This document shows positions 26,397 through 52,330 of a stretch of DNA of 64,000 nt, piece after piece. The stretch is from the NCBI RefSeq assembly GCF_025399835.1, contig NZ_JAODVR010000001.1:1860001-1924000 (forward strand), read 5' to 3'. The stretch comes from Haloarchaeobius sp. HME9146 (GTDB lineage Archaea > Halobacteriota > Halobacteria > Halobacteriales > Natrialbaceae). The position numbers and the translations under genes are program-made. The notes beneath the pieces were generated by a model, which saw only the letters and a list, made by a program, of their open reading frames with translations, had not been told where the DNA came from and made no database searches. The number at the start of each line of letters is the position of its first letter. The stretch's first letter is position 1.

Positions 26397-26495
26397 CGTC
26401 TCGGTTCGACAGGACGACAGGACCCGGCCAGAACCGGGAGACGGGAGGGAATACCATCGCCAGACGTACCAGAAATTAAATATGTGGGCGCGGCA

Positions 26496-26501
26496 TTTAT
26501 C
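26496..26501 (+). promoter_or_regulatory. TATA-like element for the HalX regulator
   Basis: TTTAT lies 26-30 bases before the GTG at 26526 and supports that start over the in-frame GTG at 26484. Confidence 0.45.
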
Positions 26502-26525
26502 AACCATAGCCTCCATGGGTCGTGT

Positions 26526-27131
26526 GTGGCAGAAAACGACGGTCAAGGGGCTGGTAGCTCATCGGACGGCCTCGAGGTGCTCGTCGTCGACGACGAGTCA
26601 CGACTGGCAGACCTCTTCGCGGCGTGGCTCACGACGGAGTACAACGTCGAAGCGGCCTACGACGGGGAATCGGCGCTCGAGCTGATGGAAGAGTCGGTGG
26701 AGATCGTCCTGCTGGACCGACGGATGCCTGGACTCTCGGGTGACGAGGTGCTCGAACGTATCCGGGCGGACGGCTACGACTGTCGAGTGGTGATGGTCAC
26801 GGCTGTCGACCCGGACTTCGACATCATCGAGATGGGCTTCGACGACTACCTCGTCAAGCCGGTCTCGAAGGACGAACTTCTCGATGTCGTCAAGAACGTC
26901 ACCTCACGGTCGGACTACGAGAGCGACATCCAGGAGTACTACTCGCTGGTCTCGAAGAAGTCGCTCCTCGAGTCCGAGAAATCCGAGCGCGAACTCGACG
27001 ACAACGAAGAGTACGCCGAACTGTGTGCGCGTGTCGACGAACTTCGCAACAAGGTCGACGACGCCGTCTCCGGAATGAAAGACCACGACGATTTCGTCGG
27101 GGCGTTCCAGGACCTTCCCGGCGGCAGCTAG
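26526..27131 (+). CDS. HalX-domain response regulator
   Basis: A 201-residue two-component regulator. The receiver domain has VLVVDDES acidic residues, phosphoacceptor Asp in VLLDRRMPGLSG, Thr in VTAVDP and Lys in YLVKPVSKDEL. The C-terminal 75 residues match the HalX domain, a haloarchaeal helical output segment with a Lys/Glu-rich coiled stretch (VSKKSLLESEKSERE). The GTG at 26526 is chosen by TATA spacing. Its 3' end overlaps that of the convergent histidine kinase by four bases, so it may be that kinase's partner. A close paralogue is at 61590-62165. Confidence 0.88.
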   Translation: MAENDGQGAGSSSDGLEVLVVDDESRLADLFAAWLTTEYNVEAAYDGESALELMEESVEIVLLDRRMPGLSGDEVLERIRADGYDCRVVMVTAVDPDFDIIEMGFDDYLVKPVSKDELLDVVKNVTSRSDYESDIQEYYSLVSKKSLLESEKSERELDDNEEYAELCARVDELRNKVDDAVSGMKDHDDFVGAFQDLPGGS

Positions 27132-29167
27132 GCCGGTTTCACGTCCGAGAACTCGAACCGAGCACCACCTTCAGCGCTTTCGACGACGCGGGTCGTCCAG
27201 CCGTGAGCACTTGCTACTTCTCGCACGACCCAGAGCCCGATGCCCAGGCCGTCCTCCGACGTCGTGAACTCCGAATCGAACGCGTTCTCCCGAACCGTTT
27301 TCGGCATCCCCTCGCCGTCGTCGGCGACGTAGAAGCCCGCGGGTCGGGTCAGTTCGGGTTCCTCGGGTGCAGCGTTGTCCTCGCCGGGGAACTCGAAGCC
27401 GCCCGTCGAGACCTCGGTCTCCCCGTCGTCGACTGTGGGGGGTTCGAGCAATCCGACGTCGATGGCGACGTCCTCGCCACCGTGTTCGACCGCGTTCCGG
27501 AACAGGTTCTCCAGCGCCCGCAGGAGCCGGGAGCGGTCGGCCGCGAGACGCATCGACTCACCCACCGTCAGGGTCGCCGACTTGGTATCGACGTTGGACC
27601 ACGCCTCGCGGACGATGTCCTCGAGGTCGGTCGGCTCCGTCTCCGTGACGGTCTGGCCCTGCCGGGCGATGGCGAGCACGTCCGCGACGATGTCCTCCAT
27701 GCGGTCGAGGCCGTCCTCGACGTGCTGGATGTACGTCGCGACCGAATCGTCGGTCTGCTCTTTGACCAGGTCGAGGTAGCCCTGTGAGACCCCGAGCGGG
27801 TTGCGAAGGTCGTGGCTCACGATGCTGGCGAACGCGTCGAGACGTTCGTTCTGTCGCTGGAGCTCCTGTTCGCGCTTCTTCCGTTCGGTGACGTCACGGA
27901 CGACGCCGACGGTCCCGCGGAACTGCTCGTCCTCGAACGGGAGGAGCGCGATCTGGACCTCGCCCGGGAACGTCCTGCCGTCCTTGGTCTCGACGACGAC
28001 CTCCTGGGTCTCGCCTTCCATGCGTCGGTCACGGACCATCCGTCGGATGATGTCACGGCCCGCCGAGATCGACTCGTCGTCGAGGATGATGGAGATGTGT
28101 TCCCCGAGCAGGCCCTCGCGGGAGTAGCCCGTCATCGACATCATCGCGTTGTTGACGGTCATGAAGTGGCCGTCGGAGTCGAGGACGTACATGCCGTCGC
28201 CGACCGTCTCGACGAGGCGCTCGTAGCGACGCAGGACGCGCTCTTGCTGGTCGATGCGCCCGCGGATGGCGATGGTGTCGAGGACGTGCGAGACGCTGCT
28301 GGCGATCTCCCTGACCGCGCTCGTCTCCATCTCGTCGAACCCCTCGTCGTCGTTCGAGTAGACCCCGAGGATGCCGTACAGCTCGTCCTCGTATGCGAGG
28401 GGGGCGATGGCGACCGCGTTGCAGTCGCGCTCGGTCGCGGTCGCCCGCCACGGGACGGCCGCCTCGTGGGCCTCGATGTCGTTGATTATCTGGACCTCGC
28501 GACTGCGCAGCGCCCGGTCGATGACCGACTGGCGACCCGACCGCCCGACCGGGAAGGTCATGCTGATGGGCCAGTCGCCGGTCTCGCTCGCGGCGACCCA
28601 CGGCACGACCTGGCGCTCGCCCCGGTCGTACTCGCCGACCCAGGCGAACTTGTAGCGCCCGCCCAGGGTGAGCTGGTCGCAGACGGCCTCCTCGATGTCC
28701 ATCGGGGAGGACGCGTCGACGAGCGAGCGTTTCACGTCGCGGACGACGTCTTCGGGGCGGTTGCCACCCGGTGGAGCGGCGGTGCCGTGGTTCCTGACGA
28801 CGGAGTTCGCGACCCAGCCGGCGAACGCGTCGTCCGAGCCCGGCGTCCCGATGGAGTCGAGGAAGTCGACGACCTCCATGACGGCGACACCGTCGCCCCG
28901 CTCGGCGTTGTACTCCGAGAGGACGAGCAGCGGGAGGTCGGGATGGCGCTCGCGGGTCGCCTGGAAGATGGCCGGGGAGTCGAGGGCGGTCGCATCGTCG
29001 GCGACGATGCAGTCGAGGGAGCCGTCGTCGAGATGGTCGATGATACCGTCGAACCCCGCCGCGGTCAGCACGTCGACGTTCGGGTAGGACCACTCCAGGG
29101 GTGCCGCCAGCCGTTCGCGTAGCTCGGCGTCGTTGCTGATGACGAGTACGGTGCTGGTGGCGCTCAT
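27128..29167 (-). CDS. Sensor histidine kinase (receiver-like, GAF, PAS, HisKA, HATPase)
   Basis: A 679-residue cytosolic sensor kinase. Residues 1-125 resemble a receiver domain, 170-310 a GAF domain and 320-440 a PAS domain with a PAC stretch (GTVGVVRDVTERKKREQELQ). HisKA follows with phosphoacceptor FASIVSHDLRNPL near residue 450. The ATPase domain has LFRNAVEHGG (N box), ADDGEGMP (G1) and LGIGLWVVREVASAHGW (G2). All catalytic motifs are intact. It is convergent with the HalX regulator and probably phosphorylates it. No membrane helix is seen, so the signal is likely intracellular. Confidence 0.9.
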   Translation of the reverse strand: MSATSTVLVISNDAELRERLAAPLEWSYPNVDVLTAAGFDGIIDHLDDGSLDCIVADDATALDSPAIFQATRERHPDLPLLVLSEYNAERGDGVAVMEVVDFLDSIGTPGSDDAFAGWVANSVVRNHGTAAPPGGNRPEDVVRDVKRSLVDASSPMDIEEAVCDQLTLGGRYKFAWVGEYDRGERQVVPWVAASETGDWPISMTFPVGRSGRQSVIDRALRSREVQIINDIEAHEAAVPWRATATERDCNAVAIAPLAYEDELYGILGVYSNDDEGFDEMETSAVREIASSVSHVLDTIAIRGRIDQQERVLRRYERLVETVGDGMYVLDSDGHFMTVNNAMMSMTGYSREGLLGEHISIILDDESISAGRDIIRRMVRDRRMEGETQEVVVETKDGRTFPGEVQIALLPFEDEQFRGTVGVVRDVTERKKREQELQRQNERLDAFASIVSHDLRNPLGVSQGYLDLVKEQTDDSVATYIQHVEDGLDRMEDIVADVLAIARQGQTVTETEPTDLEDIVREAWSNVDTKSATLTVGESMRLAADRSRLLRALENLFRNAVEHGGEDVAIDVGLLEPPTVDDGETEVSTGGFEFPGEDNAAPEEPELTRPAGFYVADDGEGMPKTVRENAFDSEFTTSEDGLGIGLWVVREVASAHGWTTRVVESAEGGARFEFSDVKPA

Positions 29168-29339: not shown

Positions 29340-30488
29340 TCAGGCTTGCCGGTAGACGAGGTTGCGCTGGATGGCGTTCGCGCCCTCGTAGATGACCGGG
29401 ATGCGCACGTCGCGGTAGACCCGGGCGATGCGGCGCTCGTCGAGCACGGACCGACCGCCGTGGAGTTGCATGCCCTTCTCGGCGTTGTGGGTGGCAGTCT
29501 CGGTGGCCTTCGTCTTGGCCATGGCCGCCCAGTAGCCGGCGTTCTGTCCCGACGCGACCTTCTCGCAGGCCCGCCAGGTGAGCGACCGGGCAGACTCGAA
29601 CTCGATGAGCATGTCGGCGAGGTCGTGCTGGACCGACTGGAAGTCGCTGACCTTGCGGCCGAACTCCTCGCGGTCGTGGACGAAGTCCCAGGCCTCCTCG
29701 ATGGCGGCGGCAGCCAGACCGAGGCCGTGGCCGGCGACCACGACGCGACCGTGGTTGAAGAACTCCGCGAGCATCATGAAGCCGTTGCCCTCGTAGCCGA
29801 TGATGTTCTCCTCGGGGATGCGGCAGTCGTCGAAGGTGATGTGGGCCTGCTTCGACGCCCGGAAGCCCATCTTCTCGGGGATGTGCTCGGCCTCGTACCC
29901 CTCGGTGTCGGTCGGAACGATGAACATCGAGTGGTTCCCGTACCGGTTGTCCGGGTTGTCGCCCGTTCTCGCGTAGACGGTCACCCAGTCGGCCTCGACG
30001 CCGTTGCCGATCCAGTACTTCTCGCCGTTGAGGACGTACTCGTCGCCGTCCTTCTCGGCGGTTGTTTGCATGCCGGCGAGGTCGCTCCCCGTCTCGGGTT
30101 CCGAGACCGCCAGCCCGGAGAGCTGCTCGCCCTCCGCGACCGGTCGGAGGTACTTCTCCTTCTGCTCCTCGTTTCCGTACTCGTACGTTATCTCGCAGCC
30201 GAAGCTGGCGAGCTGGAGGGTGAGCGCGATGCCGGCGTCGGCGCGGTAGAACTCCTCCGTGATGGCCAGTATCTCCGGGAGCGAGAGGCCGCGACCGCCG
30301 TACTCCTCGGGAATGTCCTGTGCGACGAGGCCCACCTCCTGCCCGGCTTCCAGGATGTCGGTCGGGTAGTCGCCGGAGCTGTAGTACTCCTGGGCGTTGG
30401 GTTCGATGTGCTCTGCCGCGAACTCGCGGGCTTCTGCTTTGATATCCAGGGCTTCCTCCGGGACGATGGAGTCCTCGAGAAGTTCCAT
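29340..30488 (-). CDS. Acyl-CoA dehydrogenase, second copy
   Basis: A 382-residue acyl-CoA dehydrogenase paralogous to that at 21878-23035. It has VSEPETGSDLAG and WIGNGVEADWVTVYAR flavin blocks, HGLGLAAAAIEEAWDFV in the C-domain and the catalytic-Glu motif IYEGANAIQRNLVYRQA. The ATG at 30488 starts MELLEDSIVPEEALD; longer frames upstream read through the neighbouring lipoprotein gene on the same strand and are spurious. The differing C-terminus suggests a different acyl chain preference. Confidence 0.93.
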   Translation of the reverse strand: MELLEDSIVPEEALDIKAEAREFAAEHIEPNAQEYYSSGDYPTDILEAGQEVGLVAQDIPEEYGGRGLSLPEILAITEEFYRADAGIALTLQLASFGCEITYEYGNEEQKEKYLRPVAEGEQLSGLAVSEPETGSDLAGMQTTAEKDGDEYVLNGEKYWIGNGVEADWVTVYARTGDNPDNRYGNHSMFIVPTDTEGYEAEHIPEKMGFRASKQAHITFDDCRIPEENIIGYEGNGFMMLAEFFNHGRVVVAGHGLGLAAAAIEEAWDFVHDREEFGRKVSDFQSVQHDLADMLIEFESARSLTWRACEKVASGQNAGYWAAMAKTKATETATHNAEKGMQLHGGRSVLDERRIARVYRDVRIPVIYEGANAIQRNLVYRQA

Positions 30489-30592: not shown

Positions 30593-32125
30593 TCAGAGGC
30601 CACGTCGGGTTCGGCGCACCTGGTACGCCTGCCCCTCGAAGACGAACCGTCGAGTGCGGACCTGTTCGAGGCCGACCGCCCCGAGTGCGCGCCCGATGAC
30701 CCGGGGTGACGTGTGGAGGTAGACTGCAGCCACCGAGTCGTCTCCGCGCAGGTACGAGAGCGTGTTCCGGAGCCCGTCGAGCTGCATCACCTGTTCGAAC
30801 AGGAGCGTCTCGGCCGCGTCGTCGACCCGGATACATTCGAGGAACGGGTCGCCGCGCTGGCGGCGCGTGGACCTGACGACGACCGTCTCGTCGTGCTGTT
30901 CGGTCGCTTCGACGTGGCTCGTCGGTGCGAGCGAGACCGTCTCGCCCGACAGTTCCAGCAGGGCCGCGACACACGACGACCGAACCTCGTGGTCGACCGA
31001 GCCGAACCGAACCGCGTAGCGCCCCGTCCTGAGCCCCGGAATCGCGACCGTTCGGGCCGCCTCGTCGATATCCTCCGCCTCCTGCCCGAGTGCGAGCGAG
31101 CGCGTCACGGTCTGGCCGGGACCGAGTGCGGGGTAGCTTCGCTGAATCCGGGCGGGTGGCCGGAGTGGAACCCAGCGGCCGACGTGCCAGCGGTAGAGCT
31201 GGACCCGCGTCGGCGCGACCGGGTACGAGCCGTAGTTCGAGAGCGTCACCGATATCGACCCGGGCAGCCGCACCCGTTCCTGGGACGGCGTCAGGTACGC
31301 GGTCATCCCGGTGTCTCGGGCATTGTGGAACCACTCGGGCGAACAGTCCGGTAGGCTCGGGACGGGCCCGCCCGCGAACGGGTCCTCGTCGCCTGCGAAG
31401 ACGGACTCCGCCGCCCGGACCGCCGTCGGGTCCCACACGGACAGCCCGAAAGTGAGGTTCGGGACCGCCGACTCGAAGCGATAGACACCGCGCTGAAGGC
31501 AGGTGTCGCTGCCCGGGTCTGTCAGGACCAGATACTCCCTGCCGACGGTCTCGTCGCTCTCGATGGTCACGGTGGTTCCCTCGACGTCGACCGGAATCGA
31601 GTTTGCGGCGCTCCAGCACCCCTCCGACGGCTCCGTCGGGCGAACCGACGAGAACCGTTCGTCCATCACGGGGACCAGCACCAGTTGCGGTCGCTCGACC
31701 ATGGTGTCTGCATCGGAGAGGTCGTCACCCGCGGTCCGCCCGACCAGCCCCCCGAACGGGACGACCCCGGGGAAGGAGAACTCGCCCGCGCTCGGGAACG
31801 TGTTGGTCGCGCCGATCCACAGCCGTGGCGGCGTGTTCGTCGAGCCGTCGGCCGTGAACCCGACGCGCACGTCGAGGCTGTCCGGCCCGCCGTCCACATC
31901 GACGACCGCCAGCCGACGGTGGTGCTCCCCCAGATGCGAGACCGCAGTCCTCGTCGGGTCGGTCGGCGGGGCTGACGCGAACGTCGGCGCGGGGCGCTGG
32001 GTCGCCGTCCCGTCGACCTGGAACGGCTCACGGGTCTGTCGCCCGGCCACGTCGCCGAGCCCGTTGCAGCCAGCGAGCGCCGAGAGACCGCCGGTGAGCC
32101 CGGCGAGGAGGGAGCGTCGCTTCAC
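30593..32125 (-). CDS. Putative lipoprotein, member 1 of a tandem family of three
   Basis: A 510-residue secreted protein. The N-terminus MKRRSLLAGLTGGLSALAGC has paired Arg residues, a hydrophobic core and an LAGC lipobox, so it is likely lipid-anchored outside the cell, perhaps through the Tat route. Conserved with the next two genes are an LWIGATNT strand, an EGCW motif, a DTCLQRGVYRF motif, a PDCSPEWFHN motif, an SCVAALLELSG motif and a near-terminal LRNTLSYLRGDDSV helix. Two probable disulfides can be proposed (see findings). No family with known function is recognised; the beta-rich pattern suggests extracellular sandwich domains. Confidence 0.75.
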   Translation of the reverse strand: MKRRSLLAGLTGGLSALAGCNGLGDVAGRQTREPFQVDGTATQRPAPTFASAPPTDPTRTAVSHLGEHHRRLAVVDVDGGPDSLDVRVGFTADGSTNTPPRLWIGATNTFPSAGEFSFPGVVPFGGLVGRTAGDDLSDADTMVERPQLVLVPVMDERFSSVRPTEPSEGCWSAANSIPVDVEGTTVTIESDETVGREYLVLTDPGSDTCLQRGVYRFESAVPNLTFGLSVWDPTAVRAAESVFAGDEDPFAGGPVPSLPDCSPEWFHNARDTGMTAYLTPSQERVRLPGSISVTLSNYGSYPVAPTRVQLYRWHVGRWVPLRPPARIQRSYPALGPGQTVTRSLALGQEAEDIDEAARTVAIPGLRTGRYAVRFGSVDHEVRSSCVAALLELSGETVSLAPTSHVEATEQHDETVVVRSTRRQRGDPFLECIRVDDAAETLLFEQVMQLDGLRNTLSYLRGDDSVAAVYLHTSPRVIGRALGAVGLEQVRTRRFVFEGQAYQVRRTRRGL

Positions 32126-32215
32126 GGTTCGTCCATCCTTCGCTGCGCGTAGACTACTGTCTTCGGGAGGCGGGTGTCGACTACGCCTCGGCGGCCGCCG
32201 GTTGAGGGCCCGTTC

Positions 32216-33814
32216 TCACTCCGGTACCGGGGCGGTCGCCCGGTAGACCGTGCCGTCGAACTGGAAGGTGAACGTCCGTTCCGTGTTCGGCACGGTCTCG
32301 TCGTCGGTGGCATCGTCCCCACTGTCACCGTCTCCACTGGCATCGTCGTCGGTGGCATCGTCGGTGGCCGCATCGTCGGTCGGGCCCAGGGCGGGCCCGA
32401 GGACCTGCGCCACCGCGTCGGCCGTCGTGGTGAGCCTGACGCTGTCGACGGTCTCGTCCCCGTGGAGGAACGCCAGCGTGTCCCGGAGTGCCTGGCGCTG
32501 GAACACCTGTTCGAGGACGAACGTCACCTGCGGGTCGCGCCCGGGTGCCCGGGACAGTTCGACCGTGGCGCGGTCGTTTTCGGGGAGTGACTCACTGCCC
32601 GCCGGTGTCGCCGCAACCACGAGCGTCCCGGTCTCCGGGTCCCGGGACGGCGTGCCGACGAACGGGGAGGGCGAAAGCCGCACGCGAGACCCCGCGGTCA
32701 CGTCGAACAGGGCCGCGACGCAGTTCACCGTCTCCAGGTCGCGGAACGCCCCGAAGAAGACCGCGTACCGACCGGACCGGAGCCCGGGCAGGGCCGACCG
32801 GTCGACGATGGACCGGGGTTCGCTGCCGACCCGGAGCGTCCGCGTTTCGGTCTCTCCCGGGAACAGCGCGGCCGGGAGCTCGCCGGCTGGCGTCGGCAGC
32901 AGTGAGCGCCACTCGCCGTCGCGCAGTTTGAACACCCGGACCGCCGTCGGGACGACGCGCTGGTCGCTCAGGTCGTGCAGCGTGAACCGGACCGGGACGG
33001 GGGTCGTGACCGACTCGCTGGTCGGTTCGAGGAATATCTCGCCGTCGGTCTCGTGGAACCACCGGGTCGCACAGGCCGGGAGGTCCGGGACGGTCTCGCC
33101 GCTGAACCGTGACGCTGGCTTCCGGGTCGACTCCCAGACAGAGACGGTGAACGTGGTGCCACGGTCGTCGCGAAAGCGGTACACACCTGGGAGCAGGCAG
33201 TCGCCATCGTCCGGGGTGACGATGTCGTACTCCCGTTCCACCTCCTCACCCGGGTCCAGGTCGACCGACTCGGTTATGTCCGGGGGTCGGAAGGCCTTCG
33301 GGAACCGCCAGCAGCCTTCGGTCTCCCACGACCACGCCACGTCGAATCGCTCGTCGTTCGTCGGCACGAGCAGCAGTCGCGGCGGCTCGCTCGCGTTCCG
33401 AGCCGCGTCTGGACCGGTCGTCCGCGCCTCGTACGTGCCGACGTAGGACCCGAAGGGCTCGACGCCGTCGAACTGGAACGTGGCGGGGGTCTCGCCCGTG
33501 TTCGTCGCCGCTATCGACAGTCTAGGCGGGTGCTTCGGTGTCCCGTCCTCGGTGAAGCCGACGCGGTACCCGAGCCGGTCCGCCGCCGTTCCGACGTCTG
33601 CAACCGCGAGTTCGACGGGCGTGTCACCGAGGGTGGAGACCGCCCGCGAACGGAGCCCCGAGGCGTCCGATTCGGTGGTGCCACTCCGGGTCGTCGGCAC
33701 CGAGAACGGTTCACGCGTCCCTGTCCCGGCGCTCGAACCATCCCCGAGTCCGTTACACCCGGCGAGGGCCGTCAGGCAGCCAGTGACGCTCGCGAGCAGG
33801 CTCCGTCGTCGCAC
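32216..33814 (-). CDS. Putative lipoprotein, member 2 of a tandem family of three
   Basis: A 532-residue paralogue of the neighbours. I place the start at the GTG at 33814, giving MRRRSLLASVTGCLTALAGC, which exactly restores the Arg-rich signal and lipobox; upstream residues in the same frame do not look like protein. It keeps EGCW, a DGDCLLPGVYRF block, PACATRWFHET and NCVAALFDVTAG. Unlike its sisters it has a low-complexity acidic insertion of about 30 residues near the C-terminus (Asp/Thr/Ser/Gly repeats, bases about 32290-32385). The C-terminal beta strand (RTFTFQFDGTVYR) is kept. Function unknown. Confidence 0.72.
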   Translation of the reverse strand: MRRRSLLASVTGCLTALAGCNGLGDGSSAGTGTREPFSVPTTRSGTTESDASGLRSRAVSTLGDTPVELAVADVGTAADRLGYRVGFTEDGTPKHPPRLSIAATNTGETPATFQFDGVEPFGSYVGTYEARTTGPDAARNASEPPRLLLVPTNDERFDVAWSWETEGCWRFPKAFRPPDITESVDLDPGEEVEREYDIVTPDDGDCLLPGVYRFRDDRGTTFTVSVWESTRKPASRFSGETVPDLPACATRWFHETDGEIFLEPTSESVTTPVPVRFTLHDLSDQRVVPTAVRVFKLRDGEWRSLLPTPAGELPAALFPGETETRTLRVGSEPRSIVDRSALPGLRSGRYAVFFGAFRDLETVNCVAALFDVTAGSRVRLSPSPFVGTPSRDPETGTLVVAATPAGSESLPENDRATVELSRAPGRDPQVTFVLEQVFQRQALRDTLAFLHGDETVDSVRLTTTADAVAQVLGPALGPTDDAATDDATDDDASGDGDSGDDATDDETVPNTERTFTFQFDGTVYRATAPVPE

Positions 33815-33860
33815 GATAGACGTGCATTGGGCGCAGAGGAAATCGTTCTTCGGGTCGCGG

Positions 33861-35369
33861 TCACAGGTCGCGCTCGAACTCGTACGGCTGTCCCTCGTAG
33901 GTGAACCGCGCACTGGGTTCCTGCCCGAGCAGGCCGAACAGTGCGAGCCACCGCCCTGTCCACTCGACTTGCGTCGAGGATGTCGTGAGCACGACCCTGG
34001 AAACCGTCTCGTCGTCGTGGATGAACGAAAGTGTGTCACGGAGGGTCGGCACCTGCATCGCCTGCTCGCGGAGGAGGACCGCTTCGGTCTCTGTGCCGTC
34101 GAGCCGTGTCAGCACGAGCCGTTCATCCGGCGCACCCTCCTGCCGGACGGTCAGTTCGTCGCCCTCGCCGCCAGTCGCGGTGGCAGCCGCGGTCGGCACG
34201 AGTGGTGCAGGCTCACCGACGAGTTCCACGAGTGCGGCCATCGACGTGAGTCTCCCCGATTCCTCCCCGTCGACACCGTCGACGCGACCGTGTTCGACCG
34301 CGTAGACCCCCGGGCCGAGCCCCCCAGCAGCGAACGTCTCGGCCCCCTCGGTGCTGGTCTCGTCGACTGCGGCGGGGCTGGCTGTCAGTCGCCCCTGAAT
34401 CACGTGTGACTCGCCAGGTCGGACGGAGCGGACGGCCTCCGGGAGCTCCCGCGGCGCGACGAATCGCCAGGTCCCATCGTGGAGTTTGTACAGACGCCAG
34501 CCGTCGGTGTGGATGGTGAACGCCCTGGCCGCGTAGTTGACGAACTCGAGGGAGAGCGTCCCGTCGGCAAGCTGGACCAGTTCGGCGCTCGGTCGTGTGT
34601 ACACCCCGTCGCCTGCCCGTGTCTCGTGGTACCAGCTCGTGGCGGGGATCAGTGGCAGGTCCGGGACCACCCGCCCAGCGAACCGTGACTCGATGACCTC
34701 GAACGCCTCTACCGTGTCGAACACCGAGACGGTGAACGCTCCGAAGTCGTCGACCACGAACCGGTACTGGCCCGGAACGAGACAGCCGGGCTGCTCGGCC
34801 GGGGTGACGAGTGCGTACTCCTGCCCGAGCGTGTCGCCGGGTCCGAGGTCCCGTGTGGCTCCTTGCTGGGCGGTCGGTCGGTCGAAGTCGTCGGTCGTCC
34901 GCCAGCAGGTACCGTCGAGTACGGCGTACTCCGTCGGGTCCCCGTGCGGAACCGGACGAAGGGCGAGTCGCGCGCCGGTGTCCGGGTCGACACCCTCGAG
35001 CGAACTGATGGGTGGCTGGTCGCCGACTCGCAACCCGCGAGAGGACGACCCCTCGTTCGTGAGACCGACCCACAGCCGAACCGGCGATGCGGCCGACGAC
35101 TGCCCCGTGAACCCGACGGTCAGCGAGAGTCGGTCGTCGCTCTCCGGTTCGAGCGCGACCAGACTCCGGAGGGCACCGAAATCCTTGCGTGTCGTCGGCT
35201 GTTCGCGCGCCAGTGCTGCTGGGCTCTGCGGACCCTGGTCGCTCGTCTCGGTCCGACTCCGGGGCGCGACGTCGAACGGTTCCCGGGTCTGGCTGCTATC
35301 GGTACCGAACCCGTTACAGCCGGCCAGCACGCTCGTGGCGAGGGCTCCCAGAATGGCGCGCCGGCGCAT
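33861..35369 (-). CDS. Putative lipoprotein, member 3 of a tandem family of three
   Basis: A 502-residue paralogue. The ATG at 35369 gives MRRRAILGALATSVLAGC, with the same Arg-rich, hydrophobic, Cys-terminated signal. It shares LWVGLTNEG, GTCW, GCLVPGQYRFVV, VVPDLP, ATSWYHET and the LRDTLSFIHDDETVSRVVL terminal helix. It lacks the two Cys residues that members 1 and 2 have in the middle (PDC and NC/SCVAAL). This is the first gene of the array in transcription order. Likely anchored outside the cell. No known function. Confidence 0.72.
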   Translation of the reverse strand: MRRRAILGALATSVLAGCNGFGTDSSQTREPFDVAPRSRTETSDQGPQSPAALAREQPTTRKDFGALRSLVALEPESDDRLSLTVGFTGQSSAASPVRLWVGLTNEGSSSRGLRVGDQPPISSLEGVDPDTGARLALRPVPHGDPTEYAVLDGTCWRTTDDFDRPTAQQGATRDLGPGDTLGQEYALVTPAEQPGCLVPGQYRFVVDDFGAFTVSVFDTVEAFEVIESRFAGRVVPDLPLIPATSWYHETRAGDGVYTRPSAELVQLADGTLSLEFVNYAARAFTIHTDGWRLYKLHDGTWRFVAPRELPEAVRSVRPGESHVIQGRLTASPAAVDETSTEGAETFAAGGLGPGVYAVEHGRVDGVDGEESGRLTSMAALVELVGEPAPLVPTAAATATGGEGDELTVRQEGAPDERLVLTRLDGTETEAVLLREQAMQVPTLRDTLSFIHDDETVSRVVLTTSSTQVEWTGRWLALFGLLGQEPSARFTYEGQPYEFERDL

Positions 35370-35449: not shown

Positions 35450-37129
35450 TCAGTCGTCGTCGCCTTCGGGCGCGGCCTCCTCGGGAGCCTTCCCCTCCAC
35501 GAGGTCGGTGTCCTCGCCGTACTGGTCGCGCAGGACCTTCTTGTTGAACTTCCCGGTCGCGGTCTTCGGCACCTCCTCGATGTAGACCACGTCGTCGGGC
35601 ACCCACCACTTGGGGTACTCGGACTTGATGGCGTCGAGCAGGTCTTCCCGGAGCGTCTCCGTGTCGGCTCCACCGGCGGGGACGACGAAGGCGACGGGCC
35701 GCTCCTGCCAGCGCTCGTGCGGGATGCCGATGACGGTCGCCTCGGCCACGTCGTCGTTGGCCATCAGCGCGTTCTCGAGCTCGACGCTGGAGATCCACTC
35801 GCCACCGGACTTGATGACGTCCTTGGCGCGGTCGACGATCTGGACGTAGCCGTCCTCGTCGACGTTCACCACGTCTCCGGTCTTCAGCCACGTGCCGTCG
35901 TCGTCCTCGACGAAGTCCTCCTCGTTGGCCTCGGGGCGCTCGAAGTACTCGGTCGTCACCCACGGCCCACGGACCCAGAGTTCACCGAAGTCCTCGCCGT
36001 TGTGTGGGACCTCCTCGCCGTTCTCGTCGATGACCTTCATCTCGAGGCCAGGGACCAGCAGCCCCTGCTTGGCCTGCTTCTCGTAGCGCTTCTCCGCGGG
36101 CCAGTCCTGCATCTCGGGTTTGAGGTGGGCGACGGTGCCGATGGGTGCCATCTCGGTCATCCCCCAGGCGTGGACGACCTCGACGTCGTACTGCTGGTCG
36201 AACGTCTTGATGAGCGACTTCGGTGCCGCGGAGCCGCCGATGATGATGCGTTCGAGCGAGGAGAGGTCGACCTCGTTCTCCTTGGCGTACTCCAGGAGAC
36301 CCAGCCAGACCGTCGGGACGCCTGCGGTGAGGGTCACGCCCTCTTCGGCGATGAGGTTCGCGAGGTCGGCGGGCTCCGGGGACGGGCCCGGATAGACGTG
36401 TTTCGCACCTGCCGCGGTGGTCGAGAACGGCATGCCCCAGGCGTTGACGTGGAACATCGGAACGACCGGCATGACGACCTCGTCCGAGCCGATACCGATG
36501 CCGGACTCGGGAAGCGTCGCCATCGTGTGCGCCCACAGCATCTGCTGGGTGTACTCGACGCCCTTCGGGTCACCCGTCGTCCCGGAGGTGTAGCACATCC
36601 CGGCGGGAGCCTCCTCGTCCACGTCGGGCCAGTCGTACTCCGTGGAATGGTCCTCGATGAACGATTCGTAGTCTACGACGGGATCCAGCGAGGTCTCCGG
36701 TACCTCACTGCCCATGACCACGAACTGTTTCACGCCGTCGAAGGCGTCGGACTGTGCCGGTCCCTCGAGTTTGGGGAGGAGCGACTGGTCGACGAAGAGG
36801 ACCCGGTCGTCGGCGTTCTCGACGATGTACTCGATGTGATGGTCGGGGAGGAGCGGGTTGATGGTGTGCAGTTGCGCACCCATGTTCGGAATCCCGAAGT
36901 ACGTCTCGAAGTGCCGGTGATGGTTCCAGCAGAAGGTGCCGACGCGGTCGCCCTCCTCGACCCCGACCTCGTCGAGAGCGCTGGCAAGCTGTGCGACACG
37001 GTCGGCGTACTCCTCGTAGTCGTACCGGACGATTCCCTCGTGGGTTCTGGAGACGATCTCCCGGTCCGAGAACAGTTGTTCTGCACGCCACAGGAACGGT
37101 CGAAGCGTCTGGGCTGTTGCGCCAGGCAT
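35450..37129 (-). CDS. Acyl-CoA synthetase (AMP-forming, fatty-acid type)
   Basis: A 559-residue adenylate-forming ligase that activates a carboxylic acid to acyl-CoA using ATP. Visible motifs are the P-loop-like YTSGTTGDPKGVEYT (near residue 185), AWGMTEMAPIGTV, the hinge TGDVVNVDEDGYVQIVDRAKDVIKSGGEWIS, and the catalytic-Lys segment PKTATGKFNKKVLRDQYG near the C-terminus. The ATG at 37129 (MPGATAQTLRPF) is preferred to a GTG nine bases upstream. It is probably a medium or long chain enzyme that feeds the beta-oxidation genes of this window. Confidence 0.92.
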   Translation of the reverse strand: MPGATAQTLRPFLWRAEQLFSDREIVSRTHEGIVRYDYEEYADRVAQLASALDEVGVEEGDRVGTFCWNHHRHFETYFGIPNMGAQLHTINPLLPDHHIEYIVENADDRVLFVDQSLLPKLEGPAQSDAFDGVKQFVVMGSEVPETSLDPVVDYESFIEDHSTEYDWPDVDEEAPAGMCYTSGTTGDPKGVEYTQQMLWAHTMATLPESGIGIGSDEVVMPVVPMFHVNAWGMPFSTTAAGAKHVYPGPSPEPADLANLIAEEGVTLTAGVPTVWLGLLEYAKENEVDLSSLERIIIGGSAAPKSLIKTFDQQYDVEVVHAWGMTEMAPIGTVAHLKPEMQDWPAEKRYEKQAKQGLLVPGLEMKVIDENGEEVPHNGEDFGELWVRGPWVTTEYFERPEANEEDFVEDDDGTWLKTGDVVNVDEDGYVQIVDRAKDVIKSGGEWISSVELENALMANDDVAEATVIGIPHERWQERPVAFVVPAGGADTETLREDLLDAIKSEYPKWWVPDDVVYIEEVPKTATGKFNKKVLRDQYGEDTDLVEGKAPEEAAPEGDDD

Positions 37130-37208
37130 ACCCCACACTTTGGAGGGAATGATAATGATATTTGCTCACAGGCAACATCACCCGGTTGGCAGCCTGCCGG
37201 ACGAAGGT

Positions 37209-51076: not shown

Positions 51077-52330
51077 ATGAACGAGAGAGACACCGAGGGA
51101 TGGTCACGCCGCGACCTGCTCAAGAGCGCCGCGACGGGTGGCGTCCTCGTCGGACTGGGTGCCGTCGTCCTCGACCGGATGGACCGCTACATCGTCGGGG
51201 CGCGGGAGGCCGACGCTGCCACTGCCGCCGCGTCTGTCTCGGACGTGCACCACGAGCGCATCGAACTCGGTGGGGACTCCCCGCTGACGCTCATCGTGGG
51301 AGCCTACTCGGAGACCAGCAGCCAGTCACTGCGCACCCGCGAGGACGTGGCGTTCGTCCAGCGCGACCGCAGGCTGACGCTCTACTCGACACCCGGCGAC
51401 GCCACCAGCGACCGCGCCACGGCTGGCGACCAGATTCTCCCGTGGGGCATCGACCGCGTCGACGCCGACGTGGCCCACGACGAGGGCGCGAAGGGTGAGG
51501 GGGTCCACGTGGGTATCATCGACAGCGGCATCGACGCGAGCCATCCCGACATCGAGGCGAACCTCGCGGACCCCTCGGACGATGGGAACCACCGTGCGTG
51601 GGCGGAGTGCCGGGGTGAGGACTGCACCCACCCGTGGTCGGACGATGGTGGCCACGGAACCCACGTCGCGGGCACCGTCGCTGCCCGGGCCGGTGACGGC
51701 GGTATCGTCGGCGTCGCCCCGGACGCGACCCTGCACGCGCTGAAGGTGTGCGGGGCCGGTGGTGGCTGCCGAACCTCCGACATCGTCGCGGCTATCCGAT
51801 ACGCGGCCGACCAGGGCTGGGACGTGGTGAACCTGAGTCTCGGGTCGGCACAGCCGTCGCCGGCGCTGCAGGCCGCCGGGCAGTACGCCCGTGGCGCAGG
51901 GACTCTCCTCGTCGCGGCCGCCGGCAACCGGGGCCAGCCGGACTCGGTGGGCTACCCCGCGGCCTACGACGAGTTCGTCGCCGTCTCCGCGACCGACATC
52001 GACGACGAGATCGCCTCGTTCTCCTCGACCGGTCCGGAGGTGGACATCGCGGCTCCCGGCAAGGGCGTCTGCTCGGCCCTCGTGGACGGGTACGGCGTCC
52101 GCGACGGCACGTCGATGGCGTCGCCCCATGTGACCGGGGCTGTCGCACAGCTCCTTGCCGCCGGGTACTCCCCGGAAGCGGCCCTCGAGGAGCTCGCCGC
52201 GACAGCCGAGGACCTCGGACTGACGAGCGACGAACAGGGAGCCGGCCTCCTCGACGTGGCGGCGTCGCTGGGCTACGACTCCGGCGACGACGGCACCGGC
52301 GACGGGACGAGCTGTCCACCCGGGGCGTGA
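51077..52330 (+). CDS. Subtilisin-like serine protease (halolysin-type), Tat-exported
   Basis: A 417-residue secreted S8 protease. SRRDLLKSAATGG near residue 10 is a twin-arginine signal, so it is exported folded. A propeptide-like region runs to about residue 110. The catalytic triad is visible: Asp in GIIDSGIDASH, His in GGHGTHVAGT and Ser in DGTSMASPHVTG, with the oxyanion Asn in AAAGNRG. The mature part has six Cys residues, two inside an insertion before the catalytic His. There is no long C-terminal domain, only a short Gly/Asp/Pro tail. The ATG at 51077 is preferred to longer in-frame starts. Confidence 0.92.
   Translation: MNERDTEGWSRRDLLKSAATGGVLVGLGAVVLDRMDRYIVGAREADAATAAASVSDVHHERIELGGDSPLTLIVGAYSETSSQSLRTREDVAFVQRDRRLTLYSTPGDATSDRATAGDQILPWGIDRVDADVAHDEGAKGEGVHVGIIDSGIDASHPDIEANLADPSDDGNHRAWAECRGEDCTHPWSDDGGHGTHVAGTVAARAGDGGIVGVAPDATLHALKVCGAGGGCRTSDIVAAIRYAADQGWDVVNLSLGSAQPSPALQAAGQYARGAGTLLVAAAGNRGQPDSVGYPAAYDEFVAVSATDIDDEIASFSSTGPEVDIAAPGKGVCSALVDGYGVRDGTSMASPHVTGAVAQLLAAGYSPEAALEELAATAEDLGLTSDEQGAGLLDVAASLGYDSGDDGTGDGTSCPPGA

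Follow-up and report, generated by a model that had tools for sequence, protein, structure and literature searches.

A tandem array of Tat-type lipoprotein genes from a widespread, modular haloarchaeal family with a predicted Ig-like domain

The analysed stretch of 64,000 nucleotides from Haloarchaeobius sp. HME9146 (hereafter the window) has a haloarchaeal source and a G+C content of 57–69%. It carries an array of three adjacent lipoprotein genes, LP1, LP2 and LP3, which are best read as tandemly duplicated members of a Tat-exported lipoprotein family that is widespread among haloarchaea. On balance, the encoded proteins are probably lipid-anchored, modular Ig-like binders that act outside the membrane in a non-enzymatic role and carry an extra, uncharacterised domain.

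Array genes and their signals

The three genes lie on the same strand, exactly at the positions where the original prediction had placed reading frames of about 500 residues (Table 1), and the intergenic gaps are 46 and 90 bases. All three N-termini follow the pattern [VM][RK]RR...LAGCNG, so that the RR-type signal and LAGC lipobox proposed for each protein are present. Haloarchaeal Tat lipoproteins are characterized by a twin-arginine close to the N-terminus and, after it, a lipobox cysteine, and LP1, LP2 and LP3 all show this arrangement. Pairwise BLASTP comparisons gave identities of 40% over 500 columns (E 2e-80), 33% (E 6e-46) and 32% (E 2e-43). These E-values exclude a chance likeness and substantiate the proposed paralogy.

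The same signature extends across the family. The twin-arginine was found in 54 of 56 family rows and a GC-type lipobox in all 56; the two rows lacking the arginine pair (L065 and L082) both start at truncated profile hits. Among 43 aligned rows, G19 and C20 are invariant, and R3, R4 and L7 are retained in at least 90%. AliA and AliB are reported to be crucial to the lipidation of archaeal lipoproteins (PMC12186497). Together with the conserved twin-arginine and lipobox, this report makes it the natural reading that the array proteins are exported already folded and anchored by a lipid at the N-terminus. Each protein would fold, leave the cell via Tat and be cut at the lipobox, and its N-terminal cysteine would then tether it to the outer face of the membrane, beneath the S-layer. 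The same type of N-terminus is described for haloarchaeal Tat lipoproteins generally (PMC2945643), from which the array family is set apart by its defined modular make-up, its domain 3 and its tandem expansion.

A common ‘TREPF’ sorting motif past the lipobox was considered and rejected, as a pattern search of the same genome returned five sites, three of them in the array, which is too few. Of the sites off the array, one is internal to a longer frame (L100) and the other falls in an 8-residue frame (L104). A different lipoprotein of this genome with a 393-residue frame (L008, region C1:2679331–2679495) also carries TREPF after its lipobox and was missed by the pattern. LP2 alone among the three array proteins contains a low-complexity acidic insert rich in Asp, Thr and Ala (32291–32380, minus strand), which sits within domain 3, after the last helix and ahead of the final hairpin.

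A TATATA element begins 30 bases before the ATG of the flanking acyl-CoA dehydrogenase gene, which likely has its own promoter, and a T6 run directly follows the stop codon of the acyl-CoA ligase gene on the other side. From these two elements, the array probably forms a unit of its own.

Table 1. Positions in the window of the array genes, the parts of LP1 and the adjoining genes
Feature	Position	Strand	Description
Acyl-CoA dehydrogenase	29340..30488	-	Pfam PF00441, PF02770, PF02771
LP1	30593..32125	-	510 aa (P0001), GTG start; Tat lipoprotein; AlphaFold2 mean pLDDT 79, pTM 0.75
LP1 twin-arginine signal and lipobox	32066..32125	-	residues 1–20, ending ...LAGC; from sequence
LP1 domain 1	31430..31942	-	residues 62–232, beta-rich; C170/C209 pair; strands in model
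LP1 domain 2	30941..31354	-	residues 258–395; predicted Ig-like sandwich; VIA-align matches
LP1 domain 3	30596..30940	-	residues 396–510; small alpha/beta in model; invariant E444, R453
LP2	32216..33814	-	532 aa (P0002), GTG start; Tat lipoprotein paralogue
LP3	33861..35369	-	502 aa (P0003), ATG at 35369; Tat lipoprotein paralogue
AMP-binding (acyl-CoA ligase type) enzyme	35450..37132	-	Pfam PF00501

Predicted domains and related families

The AlphaFold2 model, computed from a 43-sequence alignment, shows a low-confidence linker followed by three domains. Domain 1 is beta-rich in the model, and any assignment of its fold, from these strands and a weak BsuPI similarity, is a guess; its profile returned nothing useful from PDB sequences (best E 5.2). 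It contains the cysteine pair C170/C209 (LP1 numbering), a likely candidate disulphide. All 14 array-clade proteins and all four N-module-only proteins have the pair, and none of the 18 non-array full-length rows of the alignment does. The GCW/TCW and CL..G.YRF motifs picked out by the original prediction are real and contain these two cysteines.

A profile of domain 2 likewise found nothing useful among PDB sequences (best E 0.55). Structural comparison with VIA-align gave Z-scores of 6.2–7.4 for the 50 entries listed, most of them over about 95 residues. The best match among those listed is 9fx3_A (Z 7.4, rmsd 3.2, 95 aligned); residues 39–152 of RbmA (4kkr_A) align with Z 6.7, rmsd 3.0 and 94 aligned residues, and factor XIII is also among the matches. 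About 95 residues of the modelled stretch 261–395 thus superpose on Ig-like folds at an rmsd of about 3, with Z-scores below 8, which the tool warns may reflect only a common arrangement. We regard domain 2, as modelled, as an Ig-like sandwich, a generic fold that implies no function. Domain 3 was modelled alone with a mean pLDDT of 92.7. Foldseek gave no clear match for it in PDB (best E 0.11) or BFVD (best E 0.75), and the best Z-score from VIA was 3.1. We do not claim a new fold, as the tool warns that a missing structural match does not amount to one. The idea that domains 1 and 2 are duplicates of each other was discarded, with an hhalign probability of at most 2% for every domain pair.

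Parts of the array proteins also exist separately. Some proteins of about 240 residues consist of domain 1 behind a Tat lipobox, two of them in the same genome (L006 and L007), while domains 2 and 3 alone form lipoproteins of about 300–340 residues in Halorubrum and others. Domains 1 and 2 without domain 3 are found in L113 and in 386-residue frames of two genomes (G118 and G247). The long proteins thus combine modules that also occur apart.

Searches of PDB sequences, Pfam and NCBIfam gave no match to the array family at useful significance, and PADLOC gave no hit for the three array proteins. The original statement that no known domain is recognised is accurate at curated cut-offs, since neither Pfam nor NCBIfam places a family above its threshold. 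Two known families come close. The first is IPI/BsuPI (PF12690), represented by the intracellular proteinase inhibitor of Bacillus (3ISY), which like the modelled domain 2 is an Ig-like sandwich. Its nearest structural neighbours are named as RbmA 38–152 and factor XIII, described as protein–protein interaction proteins (PMC3901451), and both recur among our matches at Z 6.2–6.7; 3ISY itself is absent from the 50 matches listed. Haloarchaeal homologues of IPI have been published, and many members are described as secreted. The array proteins differ in having three domains including domain 3, a Tat lipobox and no BsuPI profile match, at E up to 5, in any window protein. Domain 1 of two N-module relatives matches BsuPI weakly (E 0.0075 and 0.015; 16.7 and 15.7 bits, below the 22.9-bit cut-off). 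The second family is the bacterial Ig-like Big_14 (PF20251), to which 14 of 32 full-length members show weak, repeated similarity (best E 0.008), in domain 2 where inspected. The best relative is the C-module protein L105 (E 1.1e-5, 25.8 bits); the cut-off of 27 bits was reached in none of the proteins scanned, and the window proteins gave no Big_14 match. Unlike Big_14, domain 2 of the array family is usually followed by domain 3, the exceptions being the three domain 1–2 proteins above. As neither profile reaches its threshold, we do not file the array proteins under BsuPI or Big_14.

The likeness to IPI underlies the most concrete alternative, by analogy with that inhibitor: the array would encode surface-tethered IPI/BsuPI-like proteins whose Ig-like domains bind halolysins of the subtilisin type and protect the envelope against secreted proteases. 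Domain 2 matches the same stretch of RbmA as the nearest neighbour of IPI, the BsuPI-like signal appears in the N-module relatives, and Halobacteriaceae accounted for every one of the 30 archaeal IPI homologues known at the time (PMC3901451). The window also encodes a halolysin-like subtilase with a twin-arginine N-terminus (51077–52330, plus strand; PF00082, E 1.5e-54). However, this gene lies about 16 kb from the array, and the lack of a BsuPI match in the window proteins weighs against the proposal as well. We consider a protease-directed role possible, but unlikely.

Distribution and evolution of the array

We searched the order with an ectodomain-only profile, chosen to avoid signal-peptide matches. 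At E 1e-6 it matched 189 of 392 genomes, representing 68 of 95 genera; as the search scores only a handful of leading candidates in each genome, per-genome copy counts are lower bounds. A first count of 236 of 392 genomes was dropped because many of its matches were to the signal peptide alone. The family appears dispensable, as 203 of the 392 genomes have no ectodomain match at this threshold. A phylum-wide search (392 genomes) added two marginal matches beyond the order (E about 5e-5). The named relatives, at 42 loci, are all haloarchaeal and include Haloarcula, Halobacterium, Halolamina, Halorubrum, Natrialba, Halorhabdus and Halorutilus. One carrier, Halorutilus salinus, is classified in a family of its own, Halorutilaceae. 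The lipoprotein family is therefore widespread but patchy and has no name, and the original view of it as lineage-specific is not supported, although the three-gene array was otherwise correctly recognised as paralogous Tat lipoproteins without a curated domain. What is local is the tandem expansion, with one to four copies at one syntenic locus among the relatives compared.

Of four plasmid records with a match to a Haloarcula member, three call the protein ‘hypothetical protein’ and one has no feature there. Our literature searches yielded no paper recognisable as dealing with this family, a statement that holds for those searches only. Two near-identical family proteins (L060 and L061, branches 0.002 and 0.004) come from Halorussus marinus and Halovenus rubra, which belong to different families; recent transfer, contamination or misnaming would each account for this.

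To place the array in its genomic setting, the window was compared with eleven stretches from other genomes. In eight of the twelve stretches the family genes occupy the same locus, bordered by an acyl-CoA dehydrogenase gene and, at the opposite end, by either an acyl-CoA ligase or a zinc-ribbon gene; the remaining four (G102, G380, G307 and a second G285 site) lack this locus. The locus holds three copies in the window, four in G282, two in G261 and one each in G270, G273, G356, G285 and G312, the last two belonging to another genus. All 14 locus copies fall into a single clade (support 100/100) of a maximum-likelihood tree built from 56 rows. LP1, LP2 and the second G261 copy group together (100/98), and LP3 joins the single copies with weak support (88/49). 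Since the locus copies form one clade and vary in number, the array arose in place through tandem duplication, followed by gain and loss. In the congener G282, the four-copy array (L085, 7914–14224) includes two LP2-type genes, and a dispersed full-length copy lies at G282:C1:788034–789302.

Between the window and G282, dN/dS was 0.40–0.49 in four copy pairs and 0.09–0.17 in six neighbour genes (Nei–Gojobori method with Jukes–Cantor correction; one genome pair, copies paired by tree and similarity). All ratios are below 1, yet those of the array exceed those of its neighbours, so the array genes are constrained but evolve fast. Two other lipoproteins of the same genome, taken as controls (L006 and L008), had no good full-length counterpart in G282, and rapid turnover may therefore be general for the lipoproteins of this genome.

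The raised dN/dS and the varying copy number at a fixed locus would also fit proteins engaged in recognition or conflict, in which pressure from viruses or kin recognition acts on lipoproteins that serve as receptors, decoys or self-markers. This appears doubtful: every pair remains below 1, in one genome pair, the controls indicate that turnover is not special to the array, and PADLOC recognised none of the three proteins.

Proposed function and significance

Six residues (W265, H267, E283, W318, E444 and R453) do not vary among the 43 aligned relatives. They validate two further motifs of the original prediction, the W(F/Y)H motif with W265 and H267 and the LR(D/N)TL motif with R453; the distant C-module proteins L105, L107, L110 and L112 lack W(F/Y)H. 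The invariant Trp, His and Glu of domain 2 and the Glu and Arg of domain 3 could form a catalytic or metal site, and W265, H267, E283, E444 and R453 would suit a solute-binding protein or an unrecognised enzyme. We find such a role decidedly improbable, because the curated family and PDB-sequence searches above gave nothing that could name the proteins, the structural matches were generic Ig-like sandwiches and not a solute-binding or enzyme family, and the eight nearby genes scanned include no transport genes.

The genes around the array say little on function. They encode a GAF/PAS histidine kinase, the acyl-CoA dehydrogenase, the AMP-binding enzyme, a zinc-ribbon protein, a creatininase and an M29 peptidase; these metabolic flanks are syntenic only in close relatives, and neighbours differ in other genera. 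Guilt by association was tried and abandoned, as an all-against-all comparison around the 42 named loci found no neighbour family at more than 8, mostly in close relatives, with crude scripted gene calls that may miss small neighbours. An accessory role for the adjoining fatty-acid enzymes, such as lipid capture for the ligase and dehydrogenase, has in its favour that the array adjoins the dehydrogenase in 8 of 8 locus genomes (the window plus seven) and the ligase in 4 of 8 (the window, G282, G285 and G312), but it is very hard to credit given the end of synteny at close relatives, the four stretches lacking the locus, the absence of a broadly shared neighbour family and the dehydrogenase’s own TATA box. 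A HalX response regulator gene (26484–27131, plus strand) and the GAF/PAS kinase gene (27128–29167, minus strand), whose 3′ ends overlap by four bases, are kept beside the array in close relatives.

Non-enzymatic binding is the likeliest function, given the predicted Ig-like folds, the lack of a recognised enzyme family, the fast but constrained change and the varying copy number at a fixed locus. This agrees with the original suggestion of binding or adhesion. By analogy, the best reading is that the array proteins act as other surface binders of the Ig-like type do. Domain 1, the Ig-like domain 2 and the compact alpha/beta domain 3 would extend from the membrane anchor on a flexible linker about 40 residues long. 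There they would bind another macromolecule, either a protein or a glycan, that is secreted or displayed on the surface, and each paralogue would be adapted to a partner of its own.

More speculatively, and with a small chance of being right, domain 3 would be an undescribed compact fold with an invariant Glu...Arg core that forms a surface recognition module with its Ig-like partner. Such a module would be duplicated and re-tuned at one locus, much like a small repertoire, for fast-changing partners such as proteases, viruses or kin.

Much of the haloarchaeal surface relies on Tat lipoproteins, few of which, to our knowledge, have known roles. The family is present in most of the sampled genera of the order, yet Pfam, NCBIfam and PADLOC models give it no name. 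It is now defined and modular, has named relatives in the culturable Haloarcula, Halobacterium and Natrialba, and offers a natural copy-number series together with a confident model of domain 3, a domain that has no clear structural match.
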